64,000 nucleotides of DNA from contig NC_090292.1 in NCBI RefSeq assembly GCF_037392515.1, positions 41,718,747 through 41,782,746 of the forward strand. The letters are read 5' to 3'. The notes beneath the pieces are model-generated. The model had not been told where the DNA came from. It searched no databases and saw only the letters and a program-made list of their open reading frames with translations. Positions 6,001-63,490 of this stretch are shown here, one piece after another. The DNA comes from Haliotis asinina. Lineage: Eukaryota > Mollusca > Gastropoda > Lepetellida > Haliotidae. The position numbers were made by a program, and so were the translations under genes. Numbering within the stretch: the first letter of the stretch is position 1; every line of letters starts with the position of its first letter.

Positions 6001-9000
6001 TGTTTAGTTTAGTATCATTCAAATAATGAGACAGTGTTCATTATTACAAGGGGGGTGCCAGGTGTGTGAGAAAGGATGGACTCTGCACAGCGTAGGTTAG
6101 TGAATCAATAACTTTGTGCAGGTGCTTTTCAAACATCTGGCTGTCCCTTAGTGAATAACTGAAATACATGCTAATATCGGTCTATATAAATGAATTTATT
6201 TACCTACGACCTGAATAATTGAAATGCATGCTAATATCGGTCTGTATGAATAAATTCATTTACCTATGACCTGAATAATTGAAATACATGCTAATATCGG
6301 TCTATATGAGTAAATTTATTTACCTATGATCTGAATAATTGAAATGCATGCTAATATCGGTCTATATAAATGTATTTATTTACCTATGACCTGAGTAATT
6401 GAAATGCATGCTAATATCGGTCTGTATGAATGAATTCATTTACCTGTGACCTGAATAATTGAAACACATGTTAATTTCGGTCTATATGAATGAATTCATT
6501 TACCTGTTACCTGAATAATTGAAATACATGCTAATATCGGTCTGTATGAATGAATTCATTTACCTATGACCTGAATAATTGAAATACATGCTAATATCGG
6601 TCTGTATGAATAAATTCATTTACCTATGACCTGAATAATTGAAATACGTGCTAATATCGGTCTGTATGAACGAATGTATTTACCTGTTACCTGAATAAAT
6701 GAAATGCATGCTAATATCGGTCTATATAAATGAATTTATTTACCTATGACCTGAGTAATTGAAATGCATGCTAATATCGGTCTGTATGAATGAATTCATT
6801 TACCTGTGACCTGAATAATTGAAACACATGTTAATTTCGGTCTATATGAATGAATTCATTTACCTGTTACCTGAATAATTGAAATACATGCTAATATCGG
6901 TCTGTATGAATGAATTCATTTACCTATGACCTGAATAATTGAAATACATGCTAATATCGGTCTGTATGAATAAATTCATTTACCTATGACCTGAATAATT
7001 GAAATACATGCTAATATCGATCTATATGAATGAATTCATTTACCTACGACCTGAATAATGGAAATACATGTTAATATCGATCTATATGAATGAATTCATT
7101 TACCTGTTACCTGAATAACTCAAATACATGCTAATATCGGTCTGTATGAATGAATTAATTTACCTATGATCTGAATAACTGAAATGCATGCTAATATTGG
7201 TCTGTATGAATAAATTCATTCACCTATGACCTGAATAATTGAAATACATGCTAATATTGGTCTATATGAATGAATTCATTTACCTATGACCTGAATAATT
7301 GAAATGCATGCTAATATCGGTCTGTATGAACGAATGTATTTACCTGTTACCTGAATAAATGAAATGCATGCTAATATCGGTCCATATAAATGAATTTATT
7401 TACCTATGACCTGAATAATTGAAATGCATGCTAATATCGGTCTGTATGAATGAATTCATTTACCTATGACCTGAATAATTGAAATACATGTTGATATCGG
7501 TCTATATGAATGAATTCATTTACCTGTTACCTGAATAATTAAAATACATGCTAATATCGGTCTGTATGAATAAATTCATTTACCTATGACCTGAATGATT
7601 GAAATACATGCTAATATCGGTCTATATGAATCAATTCGTTTACCTGTGACCGAGCATTTTGGAGAGTAGGAAAAATAGACTGAATTTTAACCTGGACATT
7701 CACAATTTCAAAGGTATTTAAATCTGTGTCGTCAATGAACAGCATTTTCATAACATATGAAACTGGTGTCAATATTTGCAAGATGTTGACATATATTTGT
7801 TCAAACTGTGCGTAACTTTATTTCATGATAAACAAAAGGGAGTGTCCCGGCCGAATGATACGTAGATTTCAAACGTCGGACATATGGGTCCTATTCCCCA
7901 TTCTCATTCTCTCTCATTCTCTATCGCTCATTCTCTCTCTCTTTCTCTCTGTCTTATTCTCTCTCTCATTCTCTCTCATTCTCTATCTCTCATTCTCTCT
8001 CTCATTTCCTCTCTCATTCTCTCTCTTTCTCTCTCTCTTATTCTCTCTCTCTCATTCTCTCTCTCTCTGTTGATACTCCCAAATTACTGTGGGTCCTCTA
8101 TTGATCAAAGGTATTGATCTCATGCATTTGATTGGCGAAAGTAATGTATCATATCAAAATATTACAAAACGCTCATATTCTGGCTTACTGATTGGTTTGT
8201 AAGTATGTATGTAAAGCGGGGTTGCAACTAAAGTCTATACAATGATCTCCACAATAATCCTGTGATTGACACCCTCGATAATTGATATTTCTATCAAGAA
8301 ATACATAACATGTTTCTGTCAACATTCTAATAACCCAAGTCCCAGCATCTACCGCCTTAATAACATCAGTGAATTCAAATGTTTATTCCAATGTTGTAAT
8401 TTAAACCAGACTGAAAGGTGAAGATCATTCACTCTGCATCCCATGTGATGAAAGAATCACAGTCAAGCATGTCCTGCTTGACTGTGTTGAATACTCCATC
8501 ACAAGGGGTTACGTTTTTAAATCAGGAACCGTATAGGATCTTTTTAATAATGTTAGTTCTCATTTACGTATTGCATTTTTAAAAGAATTAGAAAAGAATC
8601 TGAACTGACTGTAAATAGGGGTGTGGTGCACGAGCTGCCTAAAGCGCCAGGCAACTGATCCAGTGATGTTGAAGTGTAGGGATCGAGCTCACCTGTGAAC
8701 GGGTGTATAAACATTGGAGTCAACATTGTGTGCAGACTCCTTCAACGTTGTTACAACCATTACTGTGTAGTGCACAACCCTAAGAACTTAACATACCCCA
8801 TATACCGTTGGTATATGGCCAAATGGTGGCCACTCTTACAAAGTGTTCTGACTGTGTCCCAGTCCACCCAGCTGTGAATGGGTACATCGTAAGGATGAGA
8901 AAGCTACAACAACTCACAGCGCCTAGGAGCTGCAAGAGTTGTTTGTTCCCGGGAGCTGAGATTGCTGGTGTGTTAGTATGCCCGACCTTTCCAGGCCTAC

Positions 9001-12000
9001 GAGACACAAAATTCATAAACCAATGCAAAGCTGAAAATAATCTCTGTACACACATAGTAAAACATAGAGAATACGTTATGCTAGTTTTCCACCGGTAAAC
9101 ATAAACATCACTGAAGCATCTAAGATGGGTGAGTGAGTTTAGTTTTACGCCGCACTCAAGAATATGCCAGCTATATGGCGACGGTCTGTAAATTATCGAG
9201 TCTGGACCAGACAATCCAGTGATCAATAACATTCGGCCAGTGTATTTCGTTGAGACATATTAGACAGCACGCACTATGTCCCATTTCCATACCAACAAAT
9301 CTTCAATGAAGGGTGTGTCTTGGTCAGTACATACTAACACAATGTCGCCTGGTAAAGTAAACTAAAGGGAACTCCGTATCGTCATGCGTGACTAGTCATT
9401 TCAGCGCAGTTATAAGCTGGCAACGTTAGGCAGCCTGTATGAGTGAGTGTGAGTGAGTTTGGTTTTACGCCGCTTTTAGCAATATTCCAGCGATATCATG
9501 GCTGGGGACACCAGAAAATGGGCCTCACGCATTGTACCCATGTGGGAATCGAACCCGGGTCTTCGGCGTGACGAGCGGAAGCTTTAACCATTAGGCTACC
9601 CCACCGCCCCCAGCCTGTAAGAAAATCTTGAACAGAGAGCAAAGACACTTCACTTAAACTACCCACGAAAAGTTTAGCACTCACCATGTTTTATGTACAT
9701 ATGTTACATAAAACATGTATAATCAGTAAATTGTACGACTTACACGCGAATATACGCGCATCAAATTGATGAAAAACGTGCAAATAGTGTGCATGTGAAC
9801 GGATGCGGTTTTGCGAGCTCATGACAATATTTATTGAACGTTACGAATTTGTTTTCAATACATCAGTTCATATGTAAACAGTACCTTTAATCAGTATGGA
9901 ATATTTTGCAAAATCGTGTTTAAAACAGTTGCCTAAATTCAATGGCTACATTTACACCAGTGAGTCTAAACTTTTAATGGATAGTATTTATTAAACAATA
10001 AAGGCCACTTTTTAATTTTCTGGATCCGTTTAAAAAATATTTCACTTGGGTTCAAAAGCTGTAAATAATATTTAAAGGCTATTTGTAGTCGTATAATGTA
10101 CTTTTTAACACACGCCCTTCATGAATGATTTTGTATGAATGGACATGTCCTCAAATTGGATGACTGAGGAGTCCTAGAAAATGTGGACTCAACAACACTA
10201 TTCAAACCGAGACCTAGATCAGAGATCACATAATCTATTCATGAATATTCGACCATTGTCCAGTGTATTGACATTGAATCAGGTACATCTCGCCGACAAA
10301 CCTACTACGGTTTCTTTGACCCAAAAGCGGAACGATGAATTTCAATCCAACTCAAACTAATAAACTTATTATAATTGACAATGAAACGCTGATGATAATC
10401 GCAGAGTTGTTTAGTTTAGTATCATTCAAATAATGAGACAGTGTTCATTATTACAAGGGGGGTGCCAGGTGTGTGAGAAAGGATGGACTCTGCACAGCGT
10501 AGGTTAGTGAATCAATAACTTTGTGCAGGTGCTTTTCAAACATCTGGCTGTCCCTTAGTGAATAACTGAAATACATGCTAATATCGGTCTATATAAATGA
10601 ATTTATTTACCTACGACCTGAATAATTGAAATGCATGCTAATATCGGTCTGTATGAATAAATTCATTTACCTATGACCTGAATAATTGAAATACATGCTA
10701 ATATCGGTCTATATGAGTAAATTTATTTACCTATGATCTGAATAATTGAAATGCATGCTAATATCGGTCTATATAAATGTATTTATTTACCTATGACCTG
10801 AGTAATTGAAATGCATGCTAATATCGGTCTGTATGAATGAATTCATTTACCTGTGACCTGAATAATTGAAACACATGTTAATTTCGGTCTATATGAATGA
10901 ATTCATTTACCTGTTACCTGAATAATTGAAATACATGCTAATATCGGTCTGTATGAATGAATTCATTTACCTATGACCTGAATAATTGAAATACATGCTA
11001 ATATCGGTCTGTATGAATAAATTCATTTACCTATGACCTGAATAATTGAAATACGTGCTAATATCGGTCTGTATGAACGAATGTATTTACCTGTTACCTG
11101 AATAAATGAAATGCATGCTAATATCGGTCTATATAAATGAATTTATTTACCTATGACCTGAGTAATTGAAATGCATGCTAATATCGGTCTGTATGAATGA
11201 ATTCATTTACCTGTGACCTGAATAATTGAAACACATGTTAATTTCGGTCTATATGAATGAATTCATTTACCTGTTACCTGAATAATTGAAATACATGCTA
11301 ATATCGGTCTGTATGAATGAATTCATTTACCTATGACCTGAATAATTGAAATACATGCTAATATCGGTCTGTATGAATAAATTCATTTACCTATGACCTG
11401 AATAATTGAAATACATGCTAATATCGATCTATATGAATGAATTCATTTACCTACGACCTGAATAATGGAAATACATGTTAATATCGATCTATATGAATGA
11501 ATTCATTTACCTGTTACCTGAATAACTCAAATACATGCTAATATCGGTCTGTATGAATGAATTAATTTACCTATGATCTGAATAACTGAAATGCATGCTA
11601 ATATTGGTCTGTATGAATAAATTCATTCACCTATGACCTGAATAATTGAAATACATGCTAATATTGGTCTATATGAATGAATTCATTTACCTATGACCTG
11701 AATAATTGAAATGCATGCTAATATCGGTCTGTATGAACGAATGTATTTACCTGTTACCTGAATAAATGAAATGCATGCTAATATCGGTCCATATAAATGA
11801 ATTTATTTACCTATGACCTGAATAATTGAAATGCATGCTAATATCGGTCTGTATGAATGAATTCATTTACCTATGACCTGAATAATTGAAATACATGTTG
11901 ATATCGGTCTATATGAATGAATTCATTTACCTGTTACCTGAATAATTAAAATACATGCTAATATCGGTCTGTATGAATAAATTCATTTACCTATGACCTG

Positions 12001-15000
12001 AATGATTGAAATACATGCTAATATCGGTCTATATGAATCAATTCGTTTACCTGTGACCGAGCATTTTGGAGAGTAGGAAAAATAGACTGAATTTTAACCT
12101 GGACATTCACAATTTCAAAGGTATTTAAATCTGTGTCGTCAATGAACAGCATTTTCATAACATATGAAACTGGTGTCAATATTTGCAAGATGTTGACATA
12201 TATTTGTTCAAACTGTGCGTAACTTTATTTCATGATAAACAAAAGGGAGTGTCCCGGCCGAATGATACGTAGATTTCAAACGTCGGACATATGGGTCCTA
12301 TTCCCCATTCTCATTCTCTCTCATTCTCTATCGCTCATTCTCTCTCTCTTTCTCTCTGTCTTATTCTCTCTCTCATTCTCTCTCATTCTCTATCTCTCAT
12401 TCTCTCTCTCATTTCCTCTCTCATTCTCTCTCTTTCTCTCTCTCTTATTCTCTCTCTCTCATTCTCTCTCTCTCTGTTGATACTCCCAAATTACTGTGGG
12501 TCCTCTATTGATCAAAGGTATTGATCTCATGCATTTGATTGGCGAAAGTAATGTATCATATCAAAATATTACAAAACGCTCATATTCTGGCTTACTGATT
12601 GGTTTGTAAGTATGTATGTAAAGCGGGGTTGCAACTAAAGTCTATACAATGATCTCCACAATAATCCTGTGATTGACACCCTCGATAATTGATGACTATA
12701 TGGATACTAATACCTAACCCTATTGGCTATTTAGTTACCTTGACAACGTAGATACATTGTGCCACCGCAAGCTGCGCATGGGCAAACTGGGAGATGGAGG
12801 CTGGGAGATCTGTGACGATGCCAAGTACCGTCCAGTAAAGCCTTGTATCGTGTACTCGTTTGGGTGAGTAGCTAACTAAAGGGAATACGTATTAGTTAAC
12901 TGGTTATAATACGTGCAAGTCGACTGATTAGAATACGTATGTAGTCAGCTGATTAGAACACGTATTAGTCTATGAACTGATTACTATCCGTATTAGTCAG
13001 ATGATTGGAAGACATATTAGTCTATTAACTGATTAGAATACGTATTTTTCAGATGATAAGACACAGATCACGTGAAACAGGTGTGGTAATGTTGATTCAC
13101 GAGTACACACTGCCAATCAGAAAGTGGTCAGTTAAAACTTTCACACTTTCTTAGTAAAGTGCCAAATCTAGTACTTTTGATAGGATGACTCCCACCCAGG
13201 ATTCGAATCCAGAGTCAAGGATTGCCAGCACACAAAGTGAACAATTTAACCCCCTCATCCACCGCGAAAGCCGCGGACGGGACACAACCCGACCCAGCTG
13301 TAAATCGGTTCTTTACTGAGAGTGTGTAATCCCAAATATGGCATGTGTTACAACTGTTCCTTCATGTTGAATTATGTGGAATGCGTATAATTTAGAAATA
13401 ACGTCGAAGTAATAATGGCTTTCTTTACTGCAGAATCAGCAACGATTTTTCTTTTGACGATGACACAGCAAAAAACTATGAGTGTGATGTCTCAGCCTTT
13501 GATCCAAGGTTTGTATACACGCTTGTTTAGTTGTACTGGTACGTTATGAACTGGTTAGTTCGTTCGTTTGTTTGTTTTTGTTAGTTCTTTCTTTCCTCCC
13601 CTCTTTCGTTGTACCTCAAACTGCATACTCCGCAAAATTCCAGTTATATTTTGGAAGTCATAAGTAAGCAAACTAAATCAGTGGTTGATATTATGAGCAG
13701 CAATGGCAGAAAACGAAGACACAATCAACCAGTCCAGTCCAGTCGATAAGTCGACAAAACCGGCGCCGGTCTGGAGACCACTGTGAAAACCCTGGTGGTG
13801 ATTGTCCTATAGGTTTTGGGCAAGGTGCTTTGATAAGAGGCCATCCATCTTTAGTGAATGGGTGAGTGAGTGAGTATGGTTTACACCTCTTGTAGCAATA
13901 TTCTAGCAATATCATGGCTGGGAACATCAGAAATGACCCTCCCACATTGTACTCCAATTTGGAATCGAGGCTGGGTCTTTGTCGTGACGAGCGAGAGCTC
14001 TAACTGGGCTACCACTAATTTGAAAGTTTTTGTGTTTTTTATTATTTGTATTTTTTTTAAAGAATCATACCCTGAAAGGTTACAGGTTGAGCTACACGCA
14101 GGCATGTTCGTTTACATAACAGTTCTTATGGGTGTAACGGACTGTCTTTTTACGATCTGCTTTTGGAGATTTAACGTCCGCTTTCGGATAATTTTAGCAA
14201 ATGTATATATTATTGCCGTGAGTTTAAAAACAATATAATACTATTGAAGTAATCATCTTTAAACTTTAACAGTCATATTTTAGGCTTACAATCACATGTC
14301 TGCGGATACTTTAGTTTGACGTTTCTGGGCTTCTGCATTTTTTCTGCACACTTTTAAAATGCAAGCAAGGGTATGGCAGCAAGCTTTCATGAATGTTCAG
14401 TTTGAAAAGTTATTTTTAGTATTTTGGGATTAACACGTCACAATTTAATTCTAGACTCAAAAAAGATTGGGATTTAAAATTCATTTCTTTTGCATAGTCT
14501 ACAAAACAAATCTCATGTACTGTTGACTAACTCCCAATTAGCAAGTGTTGGGGCCAAAGAGATTACTAGTAACAGGGTGTTAGTTGTCAACTGACCATGT
14601 GTGGGGTTTGATTGGCTGGTTTCTAAGCAATGTGGGGTGATGATGTCAGGTTGTCCAGATTAATAGTGTCACCGGGACGAGAAAAAGGTGTCGGAATTCG
14701 GAATGTACAGGTGTTGGATAATGCAATGTTTATATGATGATAATATAGAAGAAAGCTGCTTGGATCCCCAAAATATGTCGGAATTCACAGACTGTCGGAT
14801 AATTCAGATGTCGGAATATACAGAGTCTAATGTATGATTCATAAACCCTATTCAGAAATATACATTTGGAAATACAAGGAGAATTGACTGGCATCAAACA
14901 GGGATAGAGTTACCGTTCTTGTTTGAGGTAGTTCTTATGTTCATGCGTGGATATAAAATCCTTCCCGAAGGTCACGAGTCGCTTTTCGGCTTGCCCCGGG

Positions 15001-29049: not shown

Positions 29050-31790
29050 TCACGAGTGAAGACAAAGTTGTCTCATGACAAAAGAAAGGGAGACAACTGC
29101 CAGAGAGAGAAAACCCCGAGGCTGACTTCCGGCATTACTTCTTGGACAGGAGAAAGGTGCTTTGGTTGTTTCTGAAAAACATGTCAGCAGTACAAAGAAA
29201 AATATTCAGTTGCACCGATATGGTGTTTTAACGTACATGCTGCTTTCCCCCTAAATTAGCAGCTACATACTGTATTGTCTTGTATTATAATTATAAGGTT
29301 TAGTTTTATATCTCTCTGTGATACACTTTTAGTTTTACTGTTCATCGTGAACACTTTTATAGCTTTTAATGTTATTGATTTTTACTGGTGATACATGGCT
29401 GAAATACTGCCGATTTGATAAGTATTAACTCACATACTCGCTGTCCCTATATTTCCTCATAATGTCACGGTTCCAACATTATACCAGGAATTATTTTTTG
29501 TTCTGTGGTACTTGTGACCTTATACTCGTTTACGTGGTCAGTAAGTGACGTGGCACTGTCCGAATGAAATACGTCAAAATATATTCTGACGTTAAAAGTA
29601 GATTGCGGCAGGATTGTTTGTGTTTACATGAAACCATCCTAACGGTGACGTCAGTCGATTTAGTCGTGGAAGGGTTTTGTTCCAGGTCTGTTAGGTGCAG
29701 TGTGAACAGCATTTGGGGAGAACGTTTAGAAGACTCACGTGGAACATCGACGCCTGGAATCATGGGAAGTATTTTGTTGACGAAGGTGCACTGTTGATGA
29801 CGTAGAGATTGTCCTGTTGCTAGGCTGCTGCCAATATCCAGTTCCAGATACTTTCGGTTGGTGTTGTCGTAAACCGGCCAAGTAACGGGCACTGACACTG
29901 GAACGTTGGGATTTCTGAAATAAAGACAATTATCGAAATAATGATAAATAATGGTACAAAGTCTTGAAGTAATAATTTAAGGATAGAATTCAGTTAGGAA
30001 TGATGAGTCGACAGAGGCGACAAAAGGGATCGGGCGTCCAGGCTCGCTGATTTGGTTGACACATGTCACACAATCCAGTTGCATAGATCAATGCTCATGC
30101 TTTTGATAACTGATTGTCTAGTCCAGACTCGATTATTCGATTATTACAGGCTGACGTAACTAAGCAAAACACGAAAAAGGTACAAAGACAACGTCTTCCA
30201 CCTAAACGCAATAAATACCATAATTACAACTGGAGAATGTTATTTCATACCCGAGTCTACAACAGGATTGTTTGAGTGTGATCAAGAAGTGGTCATTAAG
30301 TGCAAGGCTCACCCAGTCTTAGCAAAATTGGTCCAGTAGGTCATCATGGTCCTGCTGAGGGTCGCCTCATCTTGGTCGAATCCAAACGATTCATTCAATG
30401 GTAGACCAAACACTAGCTCTATCTCAAAGGAGTGTGCTGCACCTGTCCATGCTGGAAATGGATTTGTAGAGATGCGATGGTTGAAACCATACAGAAACGT
30501 GGGGTTCATCCTGGAGAAGACTGATCCAAACTCCACAACAGGACAATTGTAAAGGACGTCGCTCAGAAGAGTGTTGATGCCATCAAAGTAGTTAACGTTG
30601 CCAGGAGGCTGCAGATTCTTGTAGTAGATGCTCAGTGCTTCTTTACCCTTATCGCTCAACTCTTTCATAAATGTTGATTTTATCATCATTTCGTATTCTG
30701 TGGAACTAAGAGTCAGATTTTGTGGTGGGAAAGTGGCATTTCTTAAGCCTGTGACTAAGGTCATCATATACAAAGTAGCTTCGTCTTTGTTAAAACCATG
30801 CAAGAGCTCGGTGTTCTTATACTCGCCTCTGGCCAGCAATGTCTTGGGGTCATCAGGGAGGAAATAGTTATCAACGACAGGAGCAAATGGGATGAGGTTC
30901 TTGACGCCGAGGGTAAACTGAAGGTTTACCATTGACTGAGCATCAGCAAATTTCAAACACTCAAAGATATCAACATCGGAATGAGTAGGGCAGTTGAGTT
31001 TCTCAGCAAGCTTTATTGTATTATCTTTACTTGTGTGAGCATCTAGGTATGTAAACGACTCTGTGATTGGTCCACTCTCCATGACTGCTCTGTCAAACGT
31101 ATCTCGTGACAACGGGGACAATATGTGAAGACCAACAGATATTGCTCCAGCACTCTCCCCAAATGTGGTAATTCGATTGGAATCTCCACCAAATTTGGCA
31201 GCATTTGTCTTGACCCATTTGAATGCCATTCTTTGGTCCATCAAACCCATGTTGCCAGGCACGGTTCCCGGGCCCAGATAGGCGAAACCTAGGGGTCCAA
31301 GTCTGTAGTTGATGGTCGCCACAATGATGTTATTCTCCACAGCAAGAACTGCACCGTCGTGAAGAGGCATCTGACCAGAACCAAGATAAAATCCACCACC
31401 ATATACCCAGATCATTACTGAAAGGTTACCGGTGTTGTTTGTTGGGGTCCAGACCGACAAGTGCAAACAGTCCTCGCTGTAATAATCAGGGATCTGTTTG
31501 AAGCTTTCCGGAAAGAATGGACCTTTTGGCTGGATGCAGGATGGGCCGGGAACTTGGGCATGTGTGATACTCGAGTTGTTCGGCTCAAAAGCAACAGGAT
31601 GCTTGAAGCGCAGATCTCCAACAGGCGGTTTGGCAAAACGAACTCCGTGATATACGTCGACAAACTTTCCACGGACTGACAGACGGTTTCCGCGGAGGCG
31701 TCCACTGGTAGTTGTTACCTCTTGCGTCACAGACAGTGATGACATGGACAAGATGATTACCACGTCAATCACTATCTTTGATGTCACCAT
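29050..31790 (-). CDS. Carboxylesterase/cholinesterase-like protein, three exons
   Basis: Exon 1 is 30313-31790, exon 2 29739-29914, exon 3 29050-29171 (591 residues). It starts with a signal peptide (hydrophobic residues 6-22). Family marks seen: KPPVGDLRF, EDCLHLSVW, oxyanion-hole GGGF (131-134), nucleophile elbow GESAG with Ser213, acid Glu337 (KDEATL) and His453 (AAHSFEIE). The triad is complete, so it should be an active serine hydrolase of the type B carboxylesterase family; substrate unknown. I see no clear choline-site Trp, so true acetylcholinesterase is unlikely. Intron 1 is phase 2 (ACTGG/GTGAGC), intron 2 phase 1. Exon 3 ends in a hydrophobic stretch (GFLSLAVVSLSFVM) then RQLCLHS, a weaker GPI-like tail than in the paralogue at 49.1 kb. 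A 3' splice site lies directly before the ATG (TGATTTCAG), so there is a 5'-UTR intron. Divergent from, and the same structure as, the 49.1-kb gene. Confidence 0.88.
30010..30165 (+). mobile_element. SINE-B fragment in esterase intron 1
   Basis: GAGGCGACAAAAGGGATCGG, GGTTGACACATGTCACACAA, CTGATTGTCTAGTCCAGACT. The usual tail is lost. Confidence 0.6.
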
Positions 31791-31985
31791 TCTGAAATCA
31801 GAAACATTTCACGATTTTTGCTACGTCTGACATTATATTCAGCCATGCCATTCTGAAATCAGAAACATTTCAGGACTATTGCTCTGACTGCCATTATGGT
31901 TGCTCGCGCCATTCTTACAAATCAGAAACATTGACAGGTCTGACATCGTTGATCGCACCATTCTGAAATCAGATTTCGTTTCTAC
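31787..31985 (-). repeat. Repeat of esterase splice acceptor and start codon
   Basis: The stretch CACCATTCTGAAATCAGAAA (inverted: acceptor TTTCTGATTTCAG then AATGGTG) occurs at 31787, about 31850, 31912 and 31957. The first is the copy used in the gene model. The others could serve as alternative acceptors. Confidence 0.7.
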
Positions 31986-40771: not shown

Positions 40772-41320
40772 GTGAGTGAGTGAGTGAGTGAGTGAGTTAA
40801 TACTTAACGTCACATTGGCAATATTTCAGTCATATCGTGACGAGAACATTTTGATACTGAAATGAAATATGTATACATTATAAAATCCTGTCGTCAAAGG
40901 ACAGTAAAACCACTAGAGCATCACATTTACAATTAAAACTAGTGTGGAGAGTTAAAACAATTACCACTATTCGGACAATACAACATAAAATACTGGCTGT
41001 AGATCGCCAACAACTGAAGGTAGATCACCATACTAGGGACCATGGGGACTTACAGTACTTCTGCTACCTGCATGGACCCCAGATGGATTTACACCATCCC
41101 CTCAGCCGTTGGCGATTATACTGAAAGTTAGCCATTATTAAAAACAACAAATATACTACGATTAAAAGTTTGGTCGTACTAAATTTACATAGAATGTTTA
41201 GGACTTACGTACCCTCTCAGGAGGACAGTAAGTTTACTATACTTCAACCCCCCTCGAGGGCACAGCCACTAACAATCTCAGTTATTAATCTAGACTACCA
41301 ATAATAAAATATTTATCTAT
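40772..41320 (-). other. LINE 3' UTR and CACTC-type tail
   Basis: Non-coding end of the LINE. It contains the stretch (on the minus strand) GTCCATGCAGGTAGCAG...GTAAGTCCCCATGGTCCC that reappears at 1.27, 1.79 and 58.4 kb. It ends with AATATTGCCAATGTGACG and a run of ACTC, the same kind of tail as both SINE families here. Confidence 0.8.
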
Positions 41321-44300
41321 TTACAATTCTGATAGCAAATCTAATTCTTTTAAGAAGGCAATAATTAAATGAGAGCTGGTATGAGTAAAAAGATCAATCA
41401 TAGTTCGTGAATTAAAATACTGATCCCTTGTGATGGAATACTCTATACAGTCAAGCAGGATATGCTTGACTGTGATTCTTTCCTCACAAGGGATGCAGAG
41501 GATCCTCACCTTTCAAAAGGTATTCATGAGTATATCGTGTATGGCCAATACGACATCGCCGCAAAATGACCTCTTCAAATCTGGACTGACAACCCAAGTG
41601 GGTATACCCAATATATGGTTTAATTCCATGTAATTTATTTACACCCACTTGGGTGTCCCACTTCTTCTGCATCAGATCACGGATATAAGATCTAATGGTA
41701 GCTTTGTAATCAGTGTAGGGAATAAGAAGTGGTGTCACAGATTTGTTGAGTGCTGCCTTAGCAGCAAGATCGGCCATTGCGTTACCAGAAATGCCTACGT
41801 GACTGGGTAACCAACAAAAGACTATGTCGCATTGGCCAGTAGCAAGATTATTATACAATTCAATAATATCAATTAAAAGTGGATGTTTACAAGATAGGTT
41901 TTTAATAGCCTGAAGGCAAGAAAGAGAATCTGAATAAATTATATATTGTTTATGTTTAGTGTGTCTTTGAATATATTTGAGAGCCGATAATATGGCGTTT
42001 GCTTCTGCTGTAAAAATAGAGCTGTTATATGGTAATCTAGAAGATATTGTTCTGGATCCAATGACAGTGGCGCAAGCCACTGCACCACAGTCCTTGGACC
42101 CATCTGTAAATAAAGCTTTATAATTGCTATATTTATGTTTTAATTGATTAAATTCTTGTTTGTATTGTAAGTCATTAGTTTCTGATTTTTTAAATGTGGC
42201 TAGTGTTAGGTCGACTTGTGGCCTAACTAACTGCCAAGGAGGAGAAGAAAGAAGACGGGAAGGTGCTATATTGTCCAGCTCAATGCCGGCAGCAGAAATA
42301 AACGATTTAATTCTGTGGCCTAAAGGCGGAACAAGAGAAGTTTTTCTGTTGTACCGTTCCTCAATAAGGGGATTAAAGATGCAGTTATAGGCAGGGTTTG
42401 ACTGATTGGAATGTAGTTTTGTCACGTACTGTAAGGCTAATTTTATACGGCGTTGATCAAGGGATGGCTCATCAGCCTCGACGAAGAGGCTCTCAATGGG
42501 TGACGTTCGAAAGGAGCCAAGACAAAGTCTTAGACCTTGATGATGGACTGAATCTAAAAGTTTAAGGTTACTTTTGCAGGCTCCACCATATACAATTGAG
42601 CCATAGTCAAGTTTAGAGCGGACAAGTGATCTATATAAGTGAAGGAGAGTAGTCTGATCCCCTCCCCACTTTGAATTGGATACAACTTTTAACAAATCGA
42701 GCGCCTTGAGGCATTTAGCTTTAAGAGATTTAATATGTGGCAGAAATGTTAAATGGGAATCAAAAATTAAGCCCAAGAACTTGGCCTCCTTTACCACCCT
42801 GATGGGAGAGCCATTTAAGGTTAGCTCTGGGTCCTTATGAGGTTTATATTTTCTACAGAAGTGTATACAATTAGTTTTGGATTTAGAAAATTTAAATCCG
42901 TTTTCGAGACACCAGTTATTTATTTTATTTAAACACAACTCTAATTGCCGTTCAATGGTGCGCATATTTTTAAGAGATATTAAAATCATCCACGAATAAT
43001 GATCCATCAATTGAATCATTTAAAACCTTTGATAAACTGTTGATCTTAATACTAAATAATGTGACAGACAAAATACAGCCTTGAGGGACACCCTGATCCT
43101 GATTGTAATGATCAGATAGGGTAGAACCCATTCGGACTTGAAATTGCCTGTCTTGTAAAAACTGTGATATAAAAAGAGGTAAACGACCTCTCAAACCAAA
43201 ATCATGTAAATCCTTTAAAATGCCATGCTTCCACGTGGTATCATAAGCTTTCTCGAGATCAAAGAAAATTGATACAGCATGTTGTTTATTTACTATAGCA
43301 TTTTTCACAAAGGATTCTAAACGTACCAAATGATCAATGGTACTGCGATTTTTCCTGAAACCACATTGAATATTTGTAATAAGGTTGTTGGTTTCAAGAT
43401 ACCATGTTAGTCTATTATTTACCATTCGCTCCATGGTTTTACATACACAACTCGTTAAGGAGATTGGTCTGTAATTAGATGGATCAGTATGATCTCGACC
43501 AGGCTTTGGTATTGGGACTACAATGGCATTACGCCAGGAAGTTGGAAAATTGCCTGTAGTCCAGATATTATCAAATACATTAAGCAGCGTTTCCAAACAT
43601 GTTTTGGGCAAATGTTTCAGGAGCTGATAATGGATACCATCAGCCCCTGTAGCTGTATCATGAGCCTGTGCAAGGGCGGTATAGAGCTCATGCAATGAAT
43701 TGATCTTGGAAACATATTTTCTCCAAGACTGACGTTTATTCTGCTTAAATGTGCGTCGAGCCTTGGCATTTAAAATTTTAACTTTATCTAAATTGTGAAC
43801 AGTAGGGTGTCGGAGAAAATAGTCTTCTGCCTTCTTCCTACTTTTCCTGGCCTGTTTACATTCGTTATCAAACCATGGCTTACGAATGTGTGGATTTACA
43901 GAGGACTTAGGGATAGTATCATCAGCAATTTGTTTCAGTGTCTCCGAAAATGACTGGATTGCATAATGAGCGTCCATGAAAAATTCTGGTTTTAAGTTTT
44001 TAGTACAACTAGTCTGAAATAAAGGCCAATTAGCTTTAGAAAAATTCCATCTTGACGTCGACAGATCATCAGTTGGATTTATAGCAGTGATTACTGTCGG
44101 AAAATGGTCACTACCACACAGGTCACCGTGGACTGACCATGAAAATTCATTAAGTATGGTTGGATCTGTGATTGACAAATCTAGTACTGAATATGTACCC
44201 GTTGCTGGATGTAGATATGTGTTCGAACCGTCGTTAAATATGCACAAGTCATTATTAGAAACAAAATCTTCAAGAATTGTACCTTTATTGTTCGTATCGT

Positions 44301-44736
44301 TGCTTCCCCACAGAGGATTATGACCGTTGAGATCTCCCGTTATAACACAGGGTCCAGGCAATTGGGAATATAAATCCTGAAGTTCTGATAGCTGAAGAGT
44401 CGAGGATGGTGGTATGTACAAGGAACAGAGTGTGATCGTGACGTGTAAGGTTAGTCGGACAGCAACAGCCTGAAGTTTAGTTGTAAGAGGAACAAGGCTG
44501 TGAATGATACCCTGTCTCACCAAAATGGAAGCACCCCCGGTTGCTTTATCCCCCGGAGGTGAAAAACAGTGATACGAGTTGTACTGACGCATTTCAAACT
44601 TATCATCACGTTTAAGAAATGTTTCCTGTAGACTAAATGCTGATGGGTTTAAATCTTGAGCTAATAATTGAACTTCGTGAAAATTATTCCTAAGCCCTCT
44701 GCAATTCCACTGTACTACATTTGTAGCGTTACTCAT
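41321..44736 (-). pseudogene. LINE ORF2: endonuclease, reverse transcriptase, RNase H (broken)
   Basis: First part, 42970-44736: APE-type endonuclease with QWNCRGL, GDLNGHNPLWGS and GSDHFP, then reverse transcriptase with FFDLEKAYD, GVPQGCILS and FVDD. Second part, 41484-43019, in another frame: the end of the RT domain and RNase H with FTDGS, AEANAI, SDSLSCL and GNAMADLAAK. A third short part, 41321-41509, carries the C-terminal CEERITVKHILLDC. So there are two frameshifts, near 42985 and 41500. Between endonuclease and RT the text runs KINSL straight into HELYTAL; relatives known to me have roughly 80-100 residues between these, so an in-frame deletion is inferred. Confidence 0.87.
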
Positions 44737-46076
44737 GGCGGTTCTATTGGAAACCTCTCTCGTGTACGAGAGGAGGGTGTACCGTTATTTCGGTTTTGTG
44801 AAGATGGTGTATCATCCATCTCCAAAGGCTCAAACAAATTGTGAACCTCTACAGGAGTATCAGCAGGAGATTTCTTTGATCTACGATTTAGACGTTTTCT
44901 TTGCGATTTTGACATTTCACCTTTTGACGTTTCAACATCTATAGCTGTTTGAACAACTTCACCTGATACATGACTAATAGTCTGAGAGGCTGACGCTGTA
45001 AAAAAGCCCTGACTGCCAGAAGTACTATTCACATGAACAGGTTTCTCAGAAGCCATCCAGGTCAAATCCGTTTGACACGAAGTAGAGATTGTTTCTGGTC
45101 GTCGTGAGACTGCAGCAGAGTATGTCACAGTGGGAGAGGGATTATGTTGATTCTGGCTATGGACTTTGTTTTTAGCCTCCATGAAGGAAATATTTGTTTC
45201 ATACTTTAATTTAAGTATCTTAGATTGCATTTGCCATTCAGGACAACATTTAGAAGAGGAAAGATGACTGCTTCCACAATTGGCACATTTAATATCATTG
45301 CTGCAGTCAGAGTCCTGATGATGTTCACTACAACGATGACAACGAGGAGTGTTTCGACAGGACTTAGACCCGTGTCCAAACTTCTGACAGGAATAGCAGC
45401 GGAGCGGAGTGGGGATATACACCTCCACTCCGATATTGAAATAGCCGGCTTTGATTGACTTTGGCAGAGTGCACGATGAAAAGGTAAACATGTAAGTGTG
45501 GCCAGGTACAATGCTACCATCCTGCTTCTTGACGGGAAAGCGTTTGACGGAAGTTACATTCTGATCCTTAAGTTCAGCCACTATTTCATCCTCGGACATG
45601 TCCGCCAGACAATGGGCTCTATCCCTAACAATGCCTCTACTTGAGTTCAGAGTTCTATGAGCTGAGACAGCAACATTGACGTTGGCAAATTGATGTTGTT
45701 GCAATAAATTTATGGATTGCTGTCGTCGCGCACACTCAACAAGAAGTGTACCTCCTCTGAGACGTGAAACGTTCTTAACCTCTCCACAAATAGATTGTAT
45801 TGTCTTTGATACTAGAAATGGATTGATCTTAAGTGGTTCACCGTTGGTAGATTCAATAACTATGAATCTTGGCCAAGGTTCTTGGTGTGTTGGACCTGAA
45901 ACATCTTCATTGCAAGAAAGATGATCAGCCTCTAAACGTCTTTTTTTGTCGTTTCTCGTGGAACCAGAAAGGGTGATTGACATGGTGATGATAATAGATT
46001 CAGCACCCCCGCTCCCCACCCGCCACCGAGTGTCAACGAGGACAGTGTTCAACTGCAGTGGAACTCCAGCCTGCAA
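44733..46076 (-). CDS. LINE ORF1: nucleic-acid-binding protein with CCHC knuckles
   Basis: Open over 447 codons. The N-terminal half is charged; around residue 227 begins a Cys-rich zone with CYSCQKFGHGSKSC, CHRCSEHHQDSDC and CANCGSSHLSSSKC, i.e. consecutive zinc knuckles. The C-terminal part is Ser/Lys-rich (KSQRKRLNRRSKK). In this LINE group ORF1 binds the element RNA as a chaperone. A second possible start is Met32 (MSITLSG), which looks more natural than the first. The stop overlaps the ORF2 start as ATGA, suggesting stop-restart translation of ORF2. Confidence 0.88.
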   Translation of the reverse strand: MQAGVPLQLNTVLVDTRWRVGSGGAESIIITMSITLSGSTRNDKKRRLEADHLSCNEDVSGPTHQEPWPRFIVIESTNGEPLKINPFLVSKTIQSICGEVKNVSRLRGGTLLVECARRQQSINLLQQHQFANVNVAVSAHRTLNSSRGIVRDRAHCLADMSEDEIVAELKDQNVTSVKRFPVKKQDGSIVPGHTYMFTFSSCTLPKSIKAGYFNIGVEVYIPTPLRCYSCQKFGHGSKSCRNTPRCHRCSEHHQDSDCSNDIKCANCGSSHLSSSKCCPEWQMQSKILKLKYETNISFMEAKNKVHSQNQHNPSPTVTYSAAVSRRPETISTSCQTDLTWMASEKPVHVNSTSGSQGFFTASASQTISHVSGEVVQTAIDVETSKGEMSKSQRKRLNRRSKKSPADTPVEVHNLFEPLEMDDTPSSQNRNNGTPSSRTRERFPIEPP

Positions 46077-46657
46077 ACACTAAGGATACAGGAGTGGTAT
46101 ACTCCAGTAAATACGACATGAGTAGCTACATTTTTCTACCAATTCAAATGCTAGGCTGGTTCGGCTATTAGCAAGAAATTGGAGACATATAGAACACAGA
46201 GGTCGACATCACCAGATTGGCCCATGAGCCACCGCCTTCTGGCATAGGACTCTGGGCAAGTAGATATAGCAAAAAGGTATTACACACTAGACGTCAAAAA
46301 AGACCAATGCCCAATAAATCAAATGTGCGAAAATACTTTCTATGCACAGGGCATGGCGTGACCAGCCGATTGATAGAATCGGGCCGATTCTACCACCCGT
46401 CTAGGTGAAGTAAGGGCCGAAGTGGTGTGTTGAGCAATAGGAGCAAAATGGTTCAGTCTCCTACTGCCCTCAACCACCAGGATCCCGTCCTCCACCGACA
46501 CGGGACGCAACCCACGGCAAACAGACTGCCCAATTTAGTCGCCTCTTACGACAAGCAATGGGGTGCTGTGGACACATTCTGTCCCGGGTCCACATGGGAG
46601 AAGAGCACTTAGCGTTACCCAGCACCCACCACGAGGAGGTGGCTCTTCATGGGTGCC

Positions 46658-56796: not shown

Positions 56797-59700
56797 CTAT
56801 GCTGAAGAGTCTTTCAGAAGTGGATTGTCCCCTGTCCCACCCGACTGTGAGAGGGTGGGGGTGCCGTCTGTCCCTGTCCGTGGAGGCATGAAGGGGAGAT
56901 TTGAACAGCAGGGTATGTACTGATACAGTCGACCTAGCCAGAACCACCCGTAGGTATTGCCTGATGACGTGTCCATCGACGTTTGTGATGTCATGGTGCT
57001 TGTGACGCCAGCATCAACGTGATTTTGCCAGGCGTCAATCCCCCGATCTTCCCTTGATCCTGAAAATGACGGAATTTTGAAACAAGATGTCATGTCAACA
57101 TCTCGATCAAACAAAACTCACACAGATAACATGGAGGATTCGCAGTGATATTACGGCGGGGGACACCAGTAATGGACTTCACATATTGTGCCCATGTGGG
57201 GAATCGAACCCGGTCTAAGGCACAACGAGGGAACACTTTAACCTATAGGCGTCTCCATCGCTCCTTATGTCAAGAGAATATCGTGTAAAATTGTTAAAGA
57301 TGACTGGGATCGAGAAACAAGTATAACTCTCTGACATCCATTGTGGATAGACCCGTGAAGGTCCCGGGGTAAAATAGACCTTCGGCAAACCATGCTTGCC
57401 ATAAAAGGCGACTATGCTTGTCGTAAGAGGCGACTAACGGGATCGGGCGATCAGGCTCACTGACTTGGTTGACACATGTCATCGGTTCCCAATTCTGCAG
57501 ATCGATGCCCATGTTGTTTATCACTGAATTGTCTAGTCAAGACTCGATTATTTACAGACGGCAGCCATATAGCTGGAATATTGTTGAGCGAAGCGTAAAA
57601 CTAAACTCACTCACTCACTATTGTGGATACCGTTACTTAAGTCGTCCTGATCTTGGCACCATTCTATATACACTATAAGTAAGTGACAGGATTTAGGTTT
57701 ACGCCGTACACAGATATATTTCAGCAATATAGCGATGATCCATAAATAATTGAGTCCGGCCCAGACAATCCAGTAAGCAACAGCATGAGTATCAATCTAA
57801 GAATAGTGTGCCGTAGAGTGTGCTACCACTTTGATAGGAAATGTCCTGAATAAGTTCAATTGTGATTAAAAAAGAAATAGACTCTATTTACCTCTGTGAT
57901 ACCCTTTTGTGTTAATTCGGTTGCTGGGTTGTCTTTTTTGTGGTGTTTTACAGCAAAGACAATCCAGAGTATGTGACAGTATTTACGTTTAATTGTGTTA
58001 TCCACCAAAGACAATTCAGGGTATCTGACAGTGTTTACCTTTAATTGTGTTATCCACCAAAACAATCCAGGTTATCTGACAACGTGGTTATCTGACAATA
58101 TTTACGTTTTATTGTGTTATCCAGCAAAGTTAAGTGAGTGAGTGAGTTATTATGTAACGTCACATCGGCAGTATCTCAGCCATATCGTAAAGAGAACATA
58201 TAACATTTAAATGGAATGTATGCATATGTTAAAAATCTGTCGACAACGGACAGTAAAGTAACTAGAATATCACAGATATACATGTAAAACTGGTAATTAA
58301 ATATAACAAATTTCAGCTAGATGGGACAACACAATATAAAAACAGACTATAGATCGCCAACAACAGAAAGTAGATCACCGTACTAGGGACCATAGGGACT
58401 TACAGTACCTTTGCTAGTTGCATGGACCCAGATTATGTAACAATGTTCATTGTGTTATCCACCAAAGACAATCCATGTTTTATGATAATGTTTACCTTTA
58501 GTGGTGTTATCCAACAATATGGCAATGGTAGCACCAAGGAGCATAGGAGTTCCAAGAATAAGAGTCAGAATTTTATCTAGGTCCTTCACTCCTGAAACAA
58601 AAGGACATTATTTAAATAAACATTACTACGAGTTAGATAGATACAGGATATTTATATAGCGCACATATCCACGCACTAGTGCATGCTCAAGGCGCTGGTA
58701 TTTTCCCCTCTATCACTGGATGTCAGTCTCAACAGCACATCGTAATTCAATCTCAACTCTCCGAGGAGTATACAACTCTTGCTGCCAATAGGCGCACCGA
58801 GTTTATTGTGACTCTCTCGTCCTGACGAGGTACCCAATTGACAGCTGGGTGGACTGGACACATATTTACAGCACTATGTCCAAGTTTACGGTACGTTGTT
58901 TAACTGGGTGTATGCACGTGTTCATGTGGCCACCACCTGGTCATATACCAATGGACCCGTGGGTTCTCTTAAGTGCACAGGGTTGTGTACGGGTTGTGAC
59001 AACACTGAAAGAGTCTGCACACAACGTTGACTCCACGGCTTTTACACCTGGTCACAGGTGGGCTCGATCCATTCACGTCAATCTCGCTGGATCACTGGCC
59101 TGGCGCTTTAGCCAGCTCGCCCACCGCGCCCCATGGGGCCAGTGTATCGTCGCGTTTAGCTGTAGTTCAGATTGATACGTTTAACCCTTATGGAGACACA
59201 AAACATAACAAGTCATAGGATGACATGTGTCTCCCAAGTCAGATAGCTTGACCACACGATCCCGTTAGTTGTCACTGACGACACGCATTAAACCCTCACA
59301 GGAAATCAGAACGAAAGAACTGGAGACACACGGAGCCATGACAGACCATCAGGGCTAGAGACACATCTGTACGGAAGGAGAGACACAGTACCAGAGACAC
59401 ACCTGGACGGAGCCATGATAGATCACTAGGGTCAGAGATAAATCTGTACGGAAATGGAGACACACTACCAGAGACCCACCTGTACGGAGCCATCACAGAC
59501 CAATAGGGCTAGAGACACATCTGTACGGAAATTGAGAAGCACTACCAGAGACACACCTGCACGGAGCCATGAGAGATTACTAGGGCTAGAGACACATATG
59601 TACGGAAGTAGAGACACACAACCAGAGGCACACCTGCATGGTGACATGACAGATAACTAGGGCCAGAGACACATCTGTACGGAAGTGGAGACACACTACC

Positions 59701-62319
59701 AGAGACACACCTCTACGGAGCAATAACAGACCACTAGGGCTAGAGACACACTGCCAAGGGCATACCTGTACGGAAGTCTTCCGGGTAGGTTTCTAACCAC
59801 TCTGGCAGGAACACACCAATAAACAGAGCCAACCCAATGATGATGAGGTTCCTGGAGGAGTTCATATTGACATACTGCAACGTGGACAGTCCCAGCGTGA
59901 CCATCATGCCACACGTCACCACGATCGCCCCTGCCAGGACTGGATCCGGCATTGTGGCCAGTGCAGCACCCACCTTCCCAATCAGAGACAGCAGCATCAT
60001 CACACACCCGGCACAGTACATGATGTAGCGATGGGCAGTCTGCATTAGACACATGTTATAACCCAACAGAGCTAGTTTTTTTTATGAAAGTCTAATGCTG
60101 CAACTTTTGTAGCATTGACTATTTTTGTAGGTGCCTGTGAGTATTTTCTCGTCACTTCGATTACTTTCTCGTTGCTTCAGGTATCTTTCAAAAAATTGAA
60201 ATTTCGAGGTTTGGTATTAAAGAAACTTGAAGTCACGAGAAATTAATTGAAATTACCTGTTTGAAAAGGATACATGCGGTAGCAAGAATATGCTTGAAGC
60301 AATGAGAAATGGATTGAAGCAGCGAGCAGTGGATTGACGGGTTGAGAAATACGAATTGAAGCATCGACCAAAAACTGCGAGAAATGGATTGCTGCAGCGA
60401 AAATCGAACTGAAACAGCGGGAAGTGGATTGAAGCAGCGAGAAATGGATTGAAGCAGCAAGCAATGGATTGAAGCAGCGAGAAGATACTCGACATTTAGA
60501 TTTACATGTAGTACATTTACTCCGATAGTGCCTCCGATTATTTATGTCATAAGCTATAAAAACGAAAGCATATTGAACTCAATTCATGGATAAAATATGT
60601 ATCAGTGTGTTATGATATATTTGACAACTTCACAGGCGTCATGTCACATCGTATTAACATATGCAATCCCCTCTCATTGTATTATGAACCAATCAAGACA
60701 CAGTATTCCGTCAGTAGACGAGACGTACTGGCAATATAAAAAGTGCTGTTTGAATAACCAATCAAATGCCATGACGTCACTGTATAATAATTTATAGCAT
60801 ATGTCATATTTGGGATTACACTTTTATTAGTAAAGTACAAAATCAGATTCACCGTGGAAGTCGCAGTGGCTGGGCGGGCTAGACGGCTGACTTTGCGTGC
60901 CGGCGATTAGGTGCATGACCCTGATGAGAGTTCGAATCCCGAATGGGACTCAACCATAAAAATACTAGAATTTGTTCTTTACTAAGGAAGTGTAATCCTA
61001 AATATGACATACGTTACATTTGACCACTTTCTAAATGGCATTGTGTCATCACAATAATTTATAGCCCAATAAAATGCCTCCCCTCGTAGCCTAACGTGAA
61101 CTCGGAAAATTTGGAACAATAAGATATAGGGGTTCACAGACTGAACCCGGATCTTTGTCGTGATAAGAGAACGCTTTAACAACTAGGGTACCCCACGCCC
61201 CAATCTGTATAATAAGCAAACATACTTTAGTCATCGTCATAGCCGCAATGTTCGGCGTGTACGACGTCGTAGATAGGCCTAAGCCAACGGCTCCAGAAAG
61301 TAGTCCTCCTAGTCCTTCTGTTAAAATCCCCCTGTTGACAGCGTGTTTCGGGGGAGTAGAGACTTCACAGGCTTTGGCAGCAGCAAAGTAATCGCCGACA
61401 GATTCGATAATGGAAGCAAGGAACGATGCTATAAATCCCACAAACAGTCCTATGTTGAACGATGGCACCCCAAACTGGCCTGAAATTGAGCGCATTATTT
61501 TTGTAAGCAAAGATGAACACTTGAGTTTGATGCAAAGGTCTTGGAACTGTTAAATTGCCACAGGACTAGTGAAATAATAATTTTAACACATTTTCAAAGT
61601 TTTCTTGTCAAGGGCATACAAAATCGTAACATACCAGTGAAGATCCGGGTGAGAACTGATCTTCAGTAACCCATGCTTCCCATACGAGCCGACTAACGGG
61701 ATCGGGTGGTCAGGCTCTCTGACATGGCCGACACAGTTGCGTAGATCGATGTCCACACTTTTGAGCATTGAATGGTCTGGTTCAGAGTCAGTTATTGACA
61801 GAACGCCACTCTAGGTGGAATATTGCTGAGTGCGCGTAAAACTAACTCACTCACCCACTCACCCACAAGCACACGTAAAGGCACTTTAAATATAGCCGGT
61901 ATGTGGTCATTTAAGAAACAGCTCCAATGCTGACCAGTTCCCGATGACTGCATGCTAGGGTCGATCTCACTTACAGACACAGGTCGAAACGAGAGCCAAT
62001 GGATCGGCTGTGAAATTCGTACAACTTGAGGACAATATTTTGCGGTTACCCATGTGATTGGTCCTCACAATATTCTAGATTGTCTGGTCCGGCCGTTATC
62101 ATTTACAGGTTCCGTGATGTAGGTAGAATTATTAAACAAATATTGAGGAGTTTGTGTCACACCTGGATGAGGCAGGTAAAACCAAGGCGTGCGCTGTATC
62201 AACTTGGACTTGGCATCAGCACGGGCGCTGTACCTGGGACTGGAGGGGTCTGCGGGGAACACGTTAGTGTAGGTGAGGATTCCAGACACTGCCCATACTA
62301 GCAGGATGCTGAGGAGGAC
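56797..62319 (-). CDS. SLC23-like: SLC23-type nucleobase/ascorbate transporter, last five exons
   Basis: Exons on the minus strand: 62163-62319, 61226-61479, 59766-60039, 58496-58591 and 56797-57059 (stop TAG 56797-56799). Phases agree across all joins. Family marks: ILTYTNVFPAD, WFYLPHPGQFGVPSF, the S-x-x-E-S-x-G-D motif (SIIESVGDYF), then TTSYTPNIAAMTMTK. The last corresponds to the signature [QEP]-N-x-G-x4-T-[RK]; here it begins P-N, as in animal ascorbate carriers, but has Ala for the usual Gly. Next come GLSTLQYVNMNSSRNL, LPEWLE, LGTPMLLGATIAILLDNT and the tail SREDRGIDAWQ. These are multi-pass membrane proteins moving nucleobases or ascorbate with sodium or protons; substrate is not decided here. 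The 5' exons, with the first membrane segments, lie beyond the right edge or are unrecognised. Three of the junctions carry minisatellites derived from the junction itself. Confidence 0.87.
57127..57266 (-). mobile_element. SINE-A copy lacking its tail
   Basis: GTGATATTACGGCGGGGGAC, ATTGTGCCCATGTGGGGAAT, CGAACCCGG. Lies about 70 bases upstream (on the minus strand) of the last SLC23 exon. Confidence 0.6.
57345..57627 (+). mobile_element. SINE-B, full length
   Basis: Starts GACCCGTGAAGGTCCCGGGG, GCTTGCCATAAAAGGCGACT, GTCGTAAGAGGCGACTAACG; ends AAAACTAAACTCACTCACTC. Best complete copy in the window; last SLC23 intron. Confidence 0.8.
57676..57800 (-). mobile_element. SINE-B 3' half, degraded
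   Basis: GGTTTACGCCGTACACAGAT, TTGAGTCCGGCCCAGACAAT, CAGCATGAGTATCAATCTAA. Confidence 0.55.
57906..58127 (-). repeat. Minisatellite derived from SLC23 exon end and donor
   Basis: On the minus strand the units contain GGATAACACAATTAAAGGTAAA-like sequence (quoted in part); the real junction reads GGATAACACCACTAAAG/GTAAAC at 58496. Three or four units here and one more at 58437-58480, the array being split by the LINE fragment. Confidence 0.7.
58128..58435 (-). mobile_element. 5'-truncated LINE 3'-UTR copy inside a minisatellite
   Basis: Matches 40772-41110 of the LINE (GAGTGAG tail, GACGTTACATAATAACTC-type end, ACAGTAAAG, TAGATCGCCAACAACAG, GTACTAGGGACCAT). It interrupts the junction-derived array of the SLC23 intron. 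Confidence 0.75.
58437..58495 (-). repeat. Same junction-derived unit, next to the exon
   Basis: GTGTTATCCACCAAAGACAA and ATGTTTACCTTTAGTGGTGT. Continuous with the exon at 58496. Confidence 0.65.
59226..59292 (-). mobile_element. SINE-B fragment
   Basis: AAGTCAGATAGCTTGACCAC, ACGATCCCGTTAGTTGTCAC. Confidence 0.4.
59296..59765 (-). repeat. Minisatellite derived from SLC23 exon end and donor
   Basis: About every 39 bases a CCTGTACGGA or TCTGTACGGA block occurs (full period about 78). It equals the inverted junction TTCCGTACAG/GT at 59766. Roughly half of the blocks keep AG/GT, so several decoy donors follow the true one. It runs directly into the exon. Confidence 0.75.
60283..60487 (+). repeat. 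Approximately 20-bp repeat in SLC23 intron
   Basis: About ten units like GAGAAATGGATTGAAGCAGC, several diverged. Confidence 0.8.
60798..61017 (+). mobile_element. SINE-C copy with inverted tails
   Basis: Left 60798-60845 is the inverse of the right-hand tail 60958-61017 (GTCATATTTGGGATTACACTT against AAGTGTAATCCTAAATATGA, shortened). The tRNA-like head with B box GTTCGAATCCC lies between. Imperfect direct repeats of about 30 bp (...AATAATTTATAGC) lie on both sides. Confidence 0.6.
61128..61203 (-). mobile_element. SINE-A head in the SLC23 intron
   Basis: Inverted B box (GACTGAACCCGGATC) and A-box region (AACAACTAGGGTACCCCAC), about 20 bases downstream of an exon donor. Confidence 0.5.
61650..61865 (+). 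mobile_element. SINE-B in SLC23 intron
   Basis: TTCAGTAACCCATGCTTCCC, CGGGATCGGGTGGTCAGGCT, GTGGAATATTGCTGAGTGCG, ending ACTCACTCACCCACTCACCC. Confidence 0.7.
62081..62150 (+). mobile_element. SINE-B fragment
   Basis: GATTGTCTGGTCCGGCCGTT and ATCATTTACAGGTTCCGTGA, degraded; near the donor of the first visible SLC23 exon. Confidence 0.4.
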
Positions 62320-62321
62320 CT

Positions 62322-62400
62322 GGTGTCATAACAGTTACAATCACAGTTACAACAATCGGACTACAAGGATGCTCTGGAGGACCGGTTGTTACAATAGGTA
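62322..62400 (-). repeat. Duplicated SLC23 acceptor and exon start
   Basis: On the minus strand GGTCCTCCAGAGCATCCTTG-TAGT near 62365-62385 repeats the true junction AG/GTCCTCCTCAGCATCCTG-CTAGT at 62319. Between them is TTGTAACTGTGATTGTAACT, the start of the large array. Confidence 0.65.
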
Positions 62401-63490
62401 AAACAACAGTAGCAACAATAACAACATTTACAACAATTACAACAGTTACAGCAATCACAACAGTTACAGCAATCAAACAACAGTTACAGCAATCAAACAA
62501 CAGTTGCAACAATCACAAGTTACAACAGTCACAACAATCACAACAGTTACAGCAATCACAATAACAGATACAGCAATCACAATAACGGATACAGCAATCA
62601 AACAACAGTTACAGCAACCACAACAAGTTACAGCAATCACAACAATGACAACAGCAGTTACAACAATCAAACAACAGTTACAACAATCAACCAACAGTTG
62701 CAACAATCACAACAGTGACAGCAATCACAACAGTTACAGCAATCACAATAACAGATACAGCAATCACAACAACAGTTACAGCAATCACAACAATCACAAC
62801 AACAGTTACAGCAATCACAACAACAGTTACAACAATAACACAACAGTTACAGCAACCACAACAAGTTACAGCAATCACAATAACAGATACAGGGATCACA
62901 ACAACAGTTACAACAATCAAACAACAGTTACAGCAATCACAACTGTTACAGCAATCAAACAGCAGTTACAGCAATCACAACAACAGTTACAGCAATCACA
63001 ACACTTACAGCAATCAAACAACAGTTATAGCAATCACAACAACAGTTACAGCAATCACACAACAGTTACAACAATCACAACAACAGATACAACAGTCACA
63101 ACAACAGTGACAGCAATCACAACAACAGTTACAGCAACCACAGCAACAGTGACAGCAATCAGAACAGTTACAGCAATCACAACACTTATAGCAATCACAA
63201 TAACAGTTACAGCAATCACAACAACAGTTACAGCAATCAAACAACAGTTACAACAACCACAACAAGTTACAGCAATCATAACAATCACAACAGTTACAGC
63301 AATCAAACAACAGTTACAGCAATCACAACAACAGTTACAGCATTCAAATAACGGTGACAGCAATCACAATAACAGACACAGCAATCACAACAACAGTTAC
63401 AACAATCAAGCAAGAGTTGCAGCAATCACAACAACAGTTACAGCAATCACAACAGTTACAGCAACCACAACAACAGTTACACCAGTTTCA
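62400..63490 (+). repeat. CAACAGTTACAGCAATCA array, about 55-60 units
   Basis: 18-21-bp units with frequent small insertions of CAA or AAC. No stop codons in most frames, so long open frames (Gln/Ser, Asn/Tyr/Ser or Thr/Val/Ala by frame) appear. In the SLC23 intron just upstream of its first visible exon. Confidence 0.92.

Follow-up and report, generated by a model that had tools for sequence, protein, structure and literature searches.

The locus analysed here raises the question of why several exon-intron junctions lie beside tandem repeats that contain the junction itself, and whether this reflects a duplication process focused on splice junctions or a tolerance of spare splice sites, the two possibilities put forward in a preliminary description. 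The window, a stretch of 64,000 nucleotides, has a composition of 39.8% G+C and resembles animal DNA, and no Rfam families were detected in it at gathering thresholds. The junction copies are probably minisatellites of the type called mirages, in which chance local tandem duplications ran across junctions and the resulting spare sites are passively tolerated.

Gene models and junctions surveyed

Four minus-strand exons, A to D, can be spliced into 260 residues of an SLC23-type transporter. Residues 264-522 of SVCT1 form a single-stretch match to 259 of the 260 residues (E=1e-66), and Pfam family PF00860 covers residues 1-220 of the product (E=5.7e-53). No continuation of the gene beyond exon D was found by eye among the open frames listed. 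The window also contains two carboxylesterase genes with matches to PF00135, Est1 (E=3.2e-125) and Est2 (E=1.7e-136). The SLC23 exons, placed by the SVCT1 match and splice dinucleotides, and the Est1 coding exon, identified by PF00135, are as follows:

62163..62319, minus strand: SLC23 exon A (acceptor 62319, donor 62163)
61226..61479, minus strand: SLC23 exon B, without junction copies
59766..60039, minus strand: SLC23 exon C (donor 59766)
58496..58591, minus strand: SLC23 exon D (donor 58496)
30313..31791, minus strand: Est1 carboxylesterase coding exon (PF00135)

The survey covered 17 junctions in four genes, placed by homology or reading frame: eight in SLC23, three in Est1, three in Est2, and three in a gene that we take to be METTL24-like. 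The last of these is the weakest placement, in that PF13383 matches its last exon with a score slightly below the gathering threshold and no Pfam family matches the other exon. For Est1 and Est2 the first acceptor was inferred from sequence, and Est2 was assigned a GC donor, apparently belonging to a GC-AG intron at 50548 (GG/GCAAGT, where the slash marks the exon edge); the paralogue at 30312 has GT. Windows of 16-40 bases centred on each junction were compared with the best same-strand copy within 1000 bases, using score thresholds that were set after the data had been seen and of which several were tried.

Copies of four junctions

Copies are carried by 4 of the 17 junctions: the SLC23 acceptor 62319 and donors 59766 and 58496, which make up three of the eight SLC23 junctions, and the Est1 acceptor 31791. 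Best-copy scores are 21/28 and 29/40 for the exon A acceptor, 20/28 and 26/40 for the exon C donor, 23/28 and 31/40 for the exon D donor, and 23/28 and 30/40 for the Est1 acceptor. Scores such as these occur at no more than 0.25% of positions in Markov-random sequence in 28- and 40-base windows. With windows of 28 bases, the remaining 13 junctions score no higher than chance. A candidate copy of the exon C acceptor (score 93) was rejected as a false match, the alignment having run over long mismatches.

The preliminary description had named chance matching of the exon-like words as an outcome that would count against it, and this explanation, together with an origin of the arrays from mobile elements, is scarcely credible on the alignments obtained. 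Two of the junctions do lie near threshold, at 20/28 (59766) and 21/28 (62319); in 16-base windows both score 12/16, no better than the array-free Est2 donor and indistinct from chance (a score reached by 13.9% of random positions), and in 20-base windows 62319 is again indistinct from chance (12%). However, in gapped alignments of each junction against its own array, all four exceeded every one of 2000 Markov-resampled arrays, narrowly at 62319 (33 against a best resampled score of 31) and 59766 (34 against 33), and at 45 against 31 and 51 against 32 for 58496 and 31791, where chance matching was already opposed. Of 3950 random 50-mers drawn from the window, 0.7% scored as high as exon A; the scores of exon C, exon D and Est1 were reached in 0 of 3946, 0 of 3936 and 0 of 3954 trials, respectively. 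Exon A is the weakest of the four cases and exon C the next weakest.

The donor of exon D heads an array in which a 52-bp unit comprises 22 exon bases and approximately 30 intron bases, including the donor:

57943..58131, minus strand: array of 52-bp units that repeat the exon D donor junction as spare donors (22 bases of the exon and GTAAA; TRF 57943-58081)
58133..58433, no strand assigned: 301-bp interspersed repeat inside the exon D junction array (78.5% identity to 40783-41084, E=2e-59)
58446..58517, minus strand: exon D donor junction and adjoining decayed copy of the 52-bp unit (self-match of 84.7% over 72 bp to 57989-58060)

An additional junction copy lies at 58122, outside the TRF span, and the junction aligns with the copy starting at 58055 over 35 bases ungapped and approximately 97 columns when gapped. 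The exon words inside these units encode LDNT, a segment common to SVCT1, which identifies exon D as the source and sets the direction of copying from exon to intron. GT is kept in three of the four spare donors, one of which also keeps the preceding G. Beyond the exon D donor, the reading frame meets a stop 13 codons on, ahead of the first spare donor that retains GT.

The presence of an interspersed repeat inside this array could be taken to favour a mobile-element origin, but the arrays at 57943-58131 and 59329-59750 have no match elsewhere in the window at E 1e-4 or better, whereas the 301-bp repeat has one, its second copy at 40783-41084. No target-site duplication of the 301-bp element was discernible by eye.

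Other repeats were observed in the window. Part of the 301-bp repeat (58353-58433) matches 1776-2112 and 1266-1305 in reverse orientation; these stretches overlap a 42-bp array at 1799-2096, which may accordingly have arisen by expansion of a piece of a mobile element. A 4389-bp stretch at 3888-8276, which includes a 25-copy array of a 60-bp unit, is repeated at 8295-12683 (offset 4407) with 0 mismatches, so that either it was duplicated very recently or the assembly is in error. In a non-LTR retrotransposon at 41487-46079, overlapping frames encode nuclease, reverse transcriptase and RNase H domains; the third frame has no Pfam match.

The exon C donor terminates a second array, the units of which carry 8-12 bases of the exon end:

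59329..59765, minus strand: 77-bp array reaching the exon C donor (TRF 59329-59750, 5.5 copies)

The exon word CTTCCGTACAG recurs through the array, and each 77-bp unit contains a pair of exon-end words, of which the first kind precedes GT and the second AT. In the GT register, CAG or GAG precedes GT in five of six units, the sixth being partial, and in the AT register all five units have AT. The unit may consist of two junction copies that diverged and were later amplified as a pair. The frame beyond the exon C donor reaches a stop after 8 codons, ahead of the first spare donor with GT. Among the array-bearing introns, only that between exons C and D has a junction copy and could be placed at both ends; its partner acceptor carries no junction copy.

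At exon A, two features lie on the intron side of the acceptor:

62320..62400, minus strand: single duplicate of the exon A acceptor junction, offset 63, AG lost (29/40 at +63)
62403..63481, minus strand: minisatellite of the intron that precedes exon A, with a period of 21 bp and related ones (TRF)

The duplicate, 63 bases into the intron, is diverged and has CG in place of AG. The minisatellite begins by TRF at 62403, at a distance of 84 bases from exon A, and no exon bases are seen in the consensus of its units. The proposal that three SLC23 junctions each edge an array or duplication therefore holds for the donors 58496 and 59766, and 62319 is accompanied by one duplicate rather than an array.

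The esterase case, placed previously at approximately 31.8 kb, was borne out:

31787..31969, minus strand: copies of the acceptor of the first coding exon of Est1, AG/AATGG (TRF 31787-31932 and alignments)

Acceptor 31791 has three spare copies, each reading AG/AATGG, at spacings of 61, 61 and 49 bases. Use of the spare acceptors would add upstream ATGs opening frames of 17, 17 and 40 codons. The array is presumably intronic; no exon upstream of the Est1 coding exon could be placed.

Seeding at junctions and tolerance of spare sites

An alternative to chance seeding is that junctions are preferred seeds, for example if transcription-linked breaks at exon-intron borders start duplications. When the 17 junctions were slid jointly round the window, random points gave a mean of 2.3 matches and at least 4 in 21% of slides (P=0.21); for SLC23 alone, the mean was 2.3 of 8 junctions, with at least 3 in 40% of slides (P=0.40). 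The lack of excess under this null follows from the abundance of local copies, which take up 14.7% of positions outside exons and, within the SLC23 region, 28% of positions. An array grown from one unit should count once, and so each array was also collapsed to one unit, leaving repeats at 2.05% of the window. Under this collapsed null, which in our view lies closer to the question of seeding, the 4 of 17 junctions compare with 0.35 expected, with P=0.0003, or 0.0005 without exon interiors, in a window that was picked for the pattern. The SLC23 junctions alone give 3 of 8 against 0.28 expected (P=0.002), and those of the esterase region give 1 of 3, with 0.05 expected (P=0.05).

The collapsed null thus speaks against purely passive seeding, and the involvement of two unrelated gene families, and of both donors and acceptors, likewise favours preferred seeds. 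Against preferred seeds stand the random-point result, the post hoc choice of a window whose SLC23 region is rich in arrays, and the sensitivity of the count to threshold: at 16/20, 22/28, 23/28 and 30/40 two of the 17 junctions remain (P 0.02-0.04, being 0.028 at 22/28 and 0.022 at 30/40), and at 17/20 one remains (P=0.24). Preferred seeding is accordingly considered unlikely, and it is a shade less likely that minisatellites of this genome arise preferentially at exon-intron junctions, with mirages a general product and not an amphioxus curiosity. The excess of junction copies is a lead and not a result, since the thresholds were post hoc and the window was selected for the pattern; a duplication process focused on junctions, as first suggested, gains from the collapsed null, shows no excess under the random-point null and is not established.

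The suggestion that spare splice sites are tolerated fared better. In all four cases the best copies are situated away from the exon, and local copies occupy 1.1% of exon-interior positions as against 14.7% of positions outside exons, suggesting that only non-coding sequence tolerates the growth of arrays. In the mirage-type reading preferred here, duplications with units of 52-77 bp would have begun on segments in which an exon-intron junction lay by chance, and the arrays would then have expanded on the intron side. The exon-adjacent site would stay in use, and the spare copies, presumably silent, would be neutral passengers that are now decaying; the exon A copy lacks AG, GT is lost in part of the exon D copies, and AT stands in place of GT in one register of the exon C units. 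Selection would keep the spare sites silent, as the spare donors of exons C and D would bring a stop and the spare acceptors of Est1 upstream ATGs with short frames.

It is very improbable that the spare sites are instead used, giving rise to alternative transcripts, such as stop-containing ones that lower expression, or to new introns, as has been proposed for amphioxus globins. Several spare donors do retain CAG/GT or AAAG/GTAAAC, but their products would be truncated, and published mirages are reported without splicing disturbance in passages of PMC3087553 and PMC3902484. On the best reading, function is unnecessary to explain the spare copies.

Comparison with known systems

The preliminary description knew of no named system for this pattern, which was mistaken, as its anatomy matches that of the amphioxus mirages described in passages of PMC3087553 and PMC3902484. 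Amphioxus globin genes possess minisatellite-like tandem duplications of exon-intron boundaries, given a name taken from the amphioxus Adh3 case; they occur at 5' and 3' boundaries, AG or GT is retained by many but not all units, units measure 10-72 bp in Adh3 and 150-160 bp in the globins BflGb6 and BflGb9, and Adh3 data together with globin RT-PCR suggest regular splicing (all from parts of PMC3087553). TnC and PGBD5 are further amphioxus mirage genes, with PGBD5 units of 60 and 108 bp (PMC3902484, in part). In the passages of these two papers, the term is applied only to cephalochordates.

The repeats described here likewise have units that span the exon-intron boundary and include exon bases, on donor and acceptor sides, at 4 of 17 junctions. 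Several tandem units are present at 58496, 59766 and 31791, whereas 62319 differs in having one duplicate. The unit lengths of 52, 77 and 61 bp, and the offset of 63, fall inside the reported range of 10-160 bp, and AG or GT is again present in many but not all units. Unlike in mirages, the exon part is short, at 5-22 bases. Judged by sequence anatomy, the junction copies appear to be a further case of the known mirage type.

Related tandem duplications holding splice signals are described in parts of PMC2812944, for human repeats at exon-intron boundaries, and of PMC2891723, for Drosophila. The gain of introns through tandemly duplicated AG/GT proto-splice sites, with cases from Drosophila, human and potato in passages of PMC2891723, PMC2812944 and PMC4974935, shares with the present repeats the duplication of sequence bearing splice signals. 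There, however, duplicated exon sequence gives a new intron, whereas here an existing intron is lengthened; the spliced exons are collinear with SVCT1, no new intron was seen, and AG/GT-duplication intron gain was rejected. Earthworm metallothionein genes possess intronic arrays, and the passages of PMC12783039 that describe them make no mention of exon parts in the units. In mollusc-directed literature, no title or abstract opening among the matches listed announces a junction-copy pattern.

The repeat families of the window may resemble those of marine gastropods. In a host other than a lancelet, repeats of the mirage type would extend beyond cephalochordates, and it would be worthwhile to ask, genome-wide, if minisatellites start at splice junctions above chance. 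The junction copies also have a bearing on how introns lengthen and on how splicing chooses among near-identical sites.
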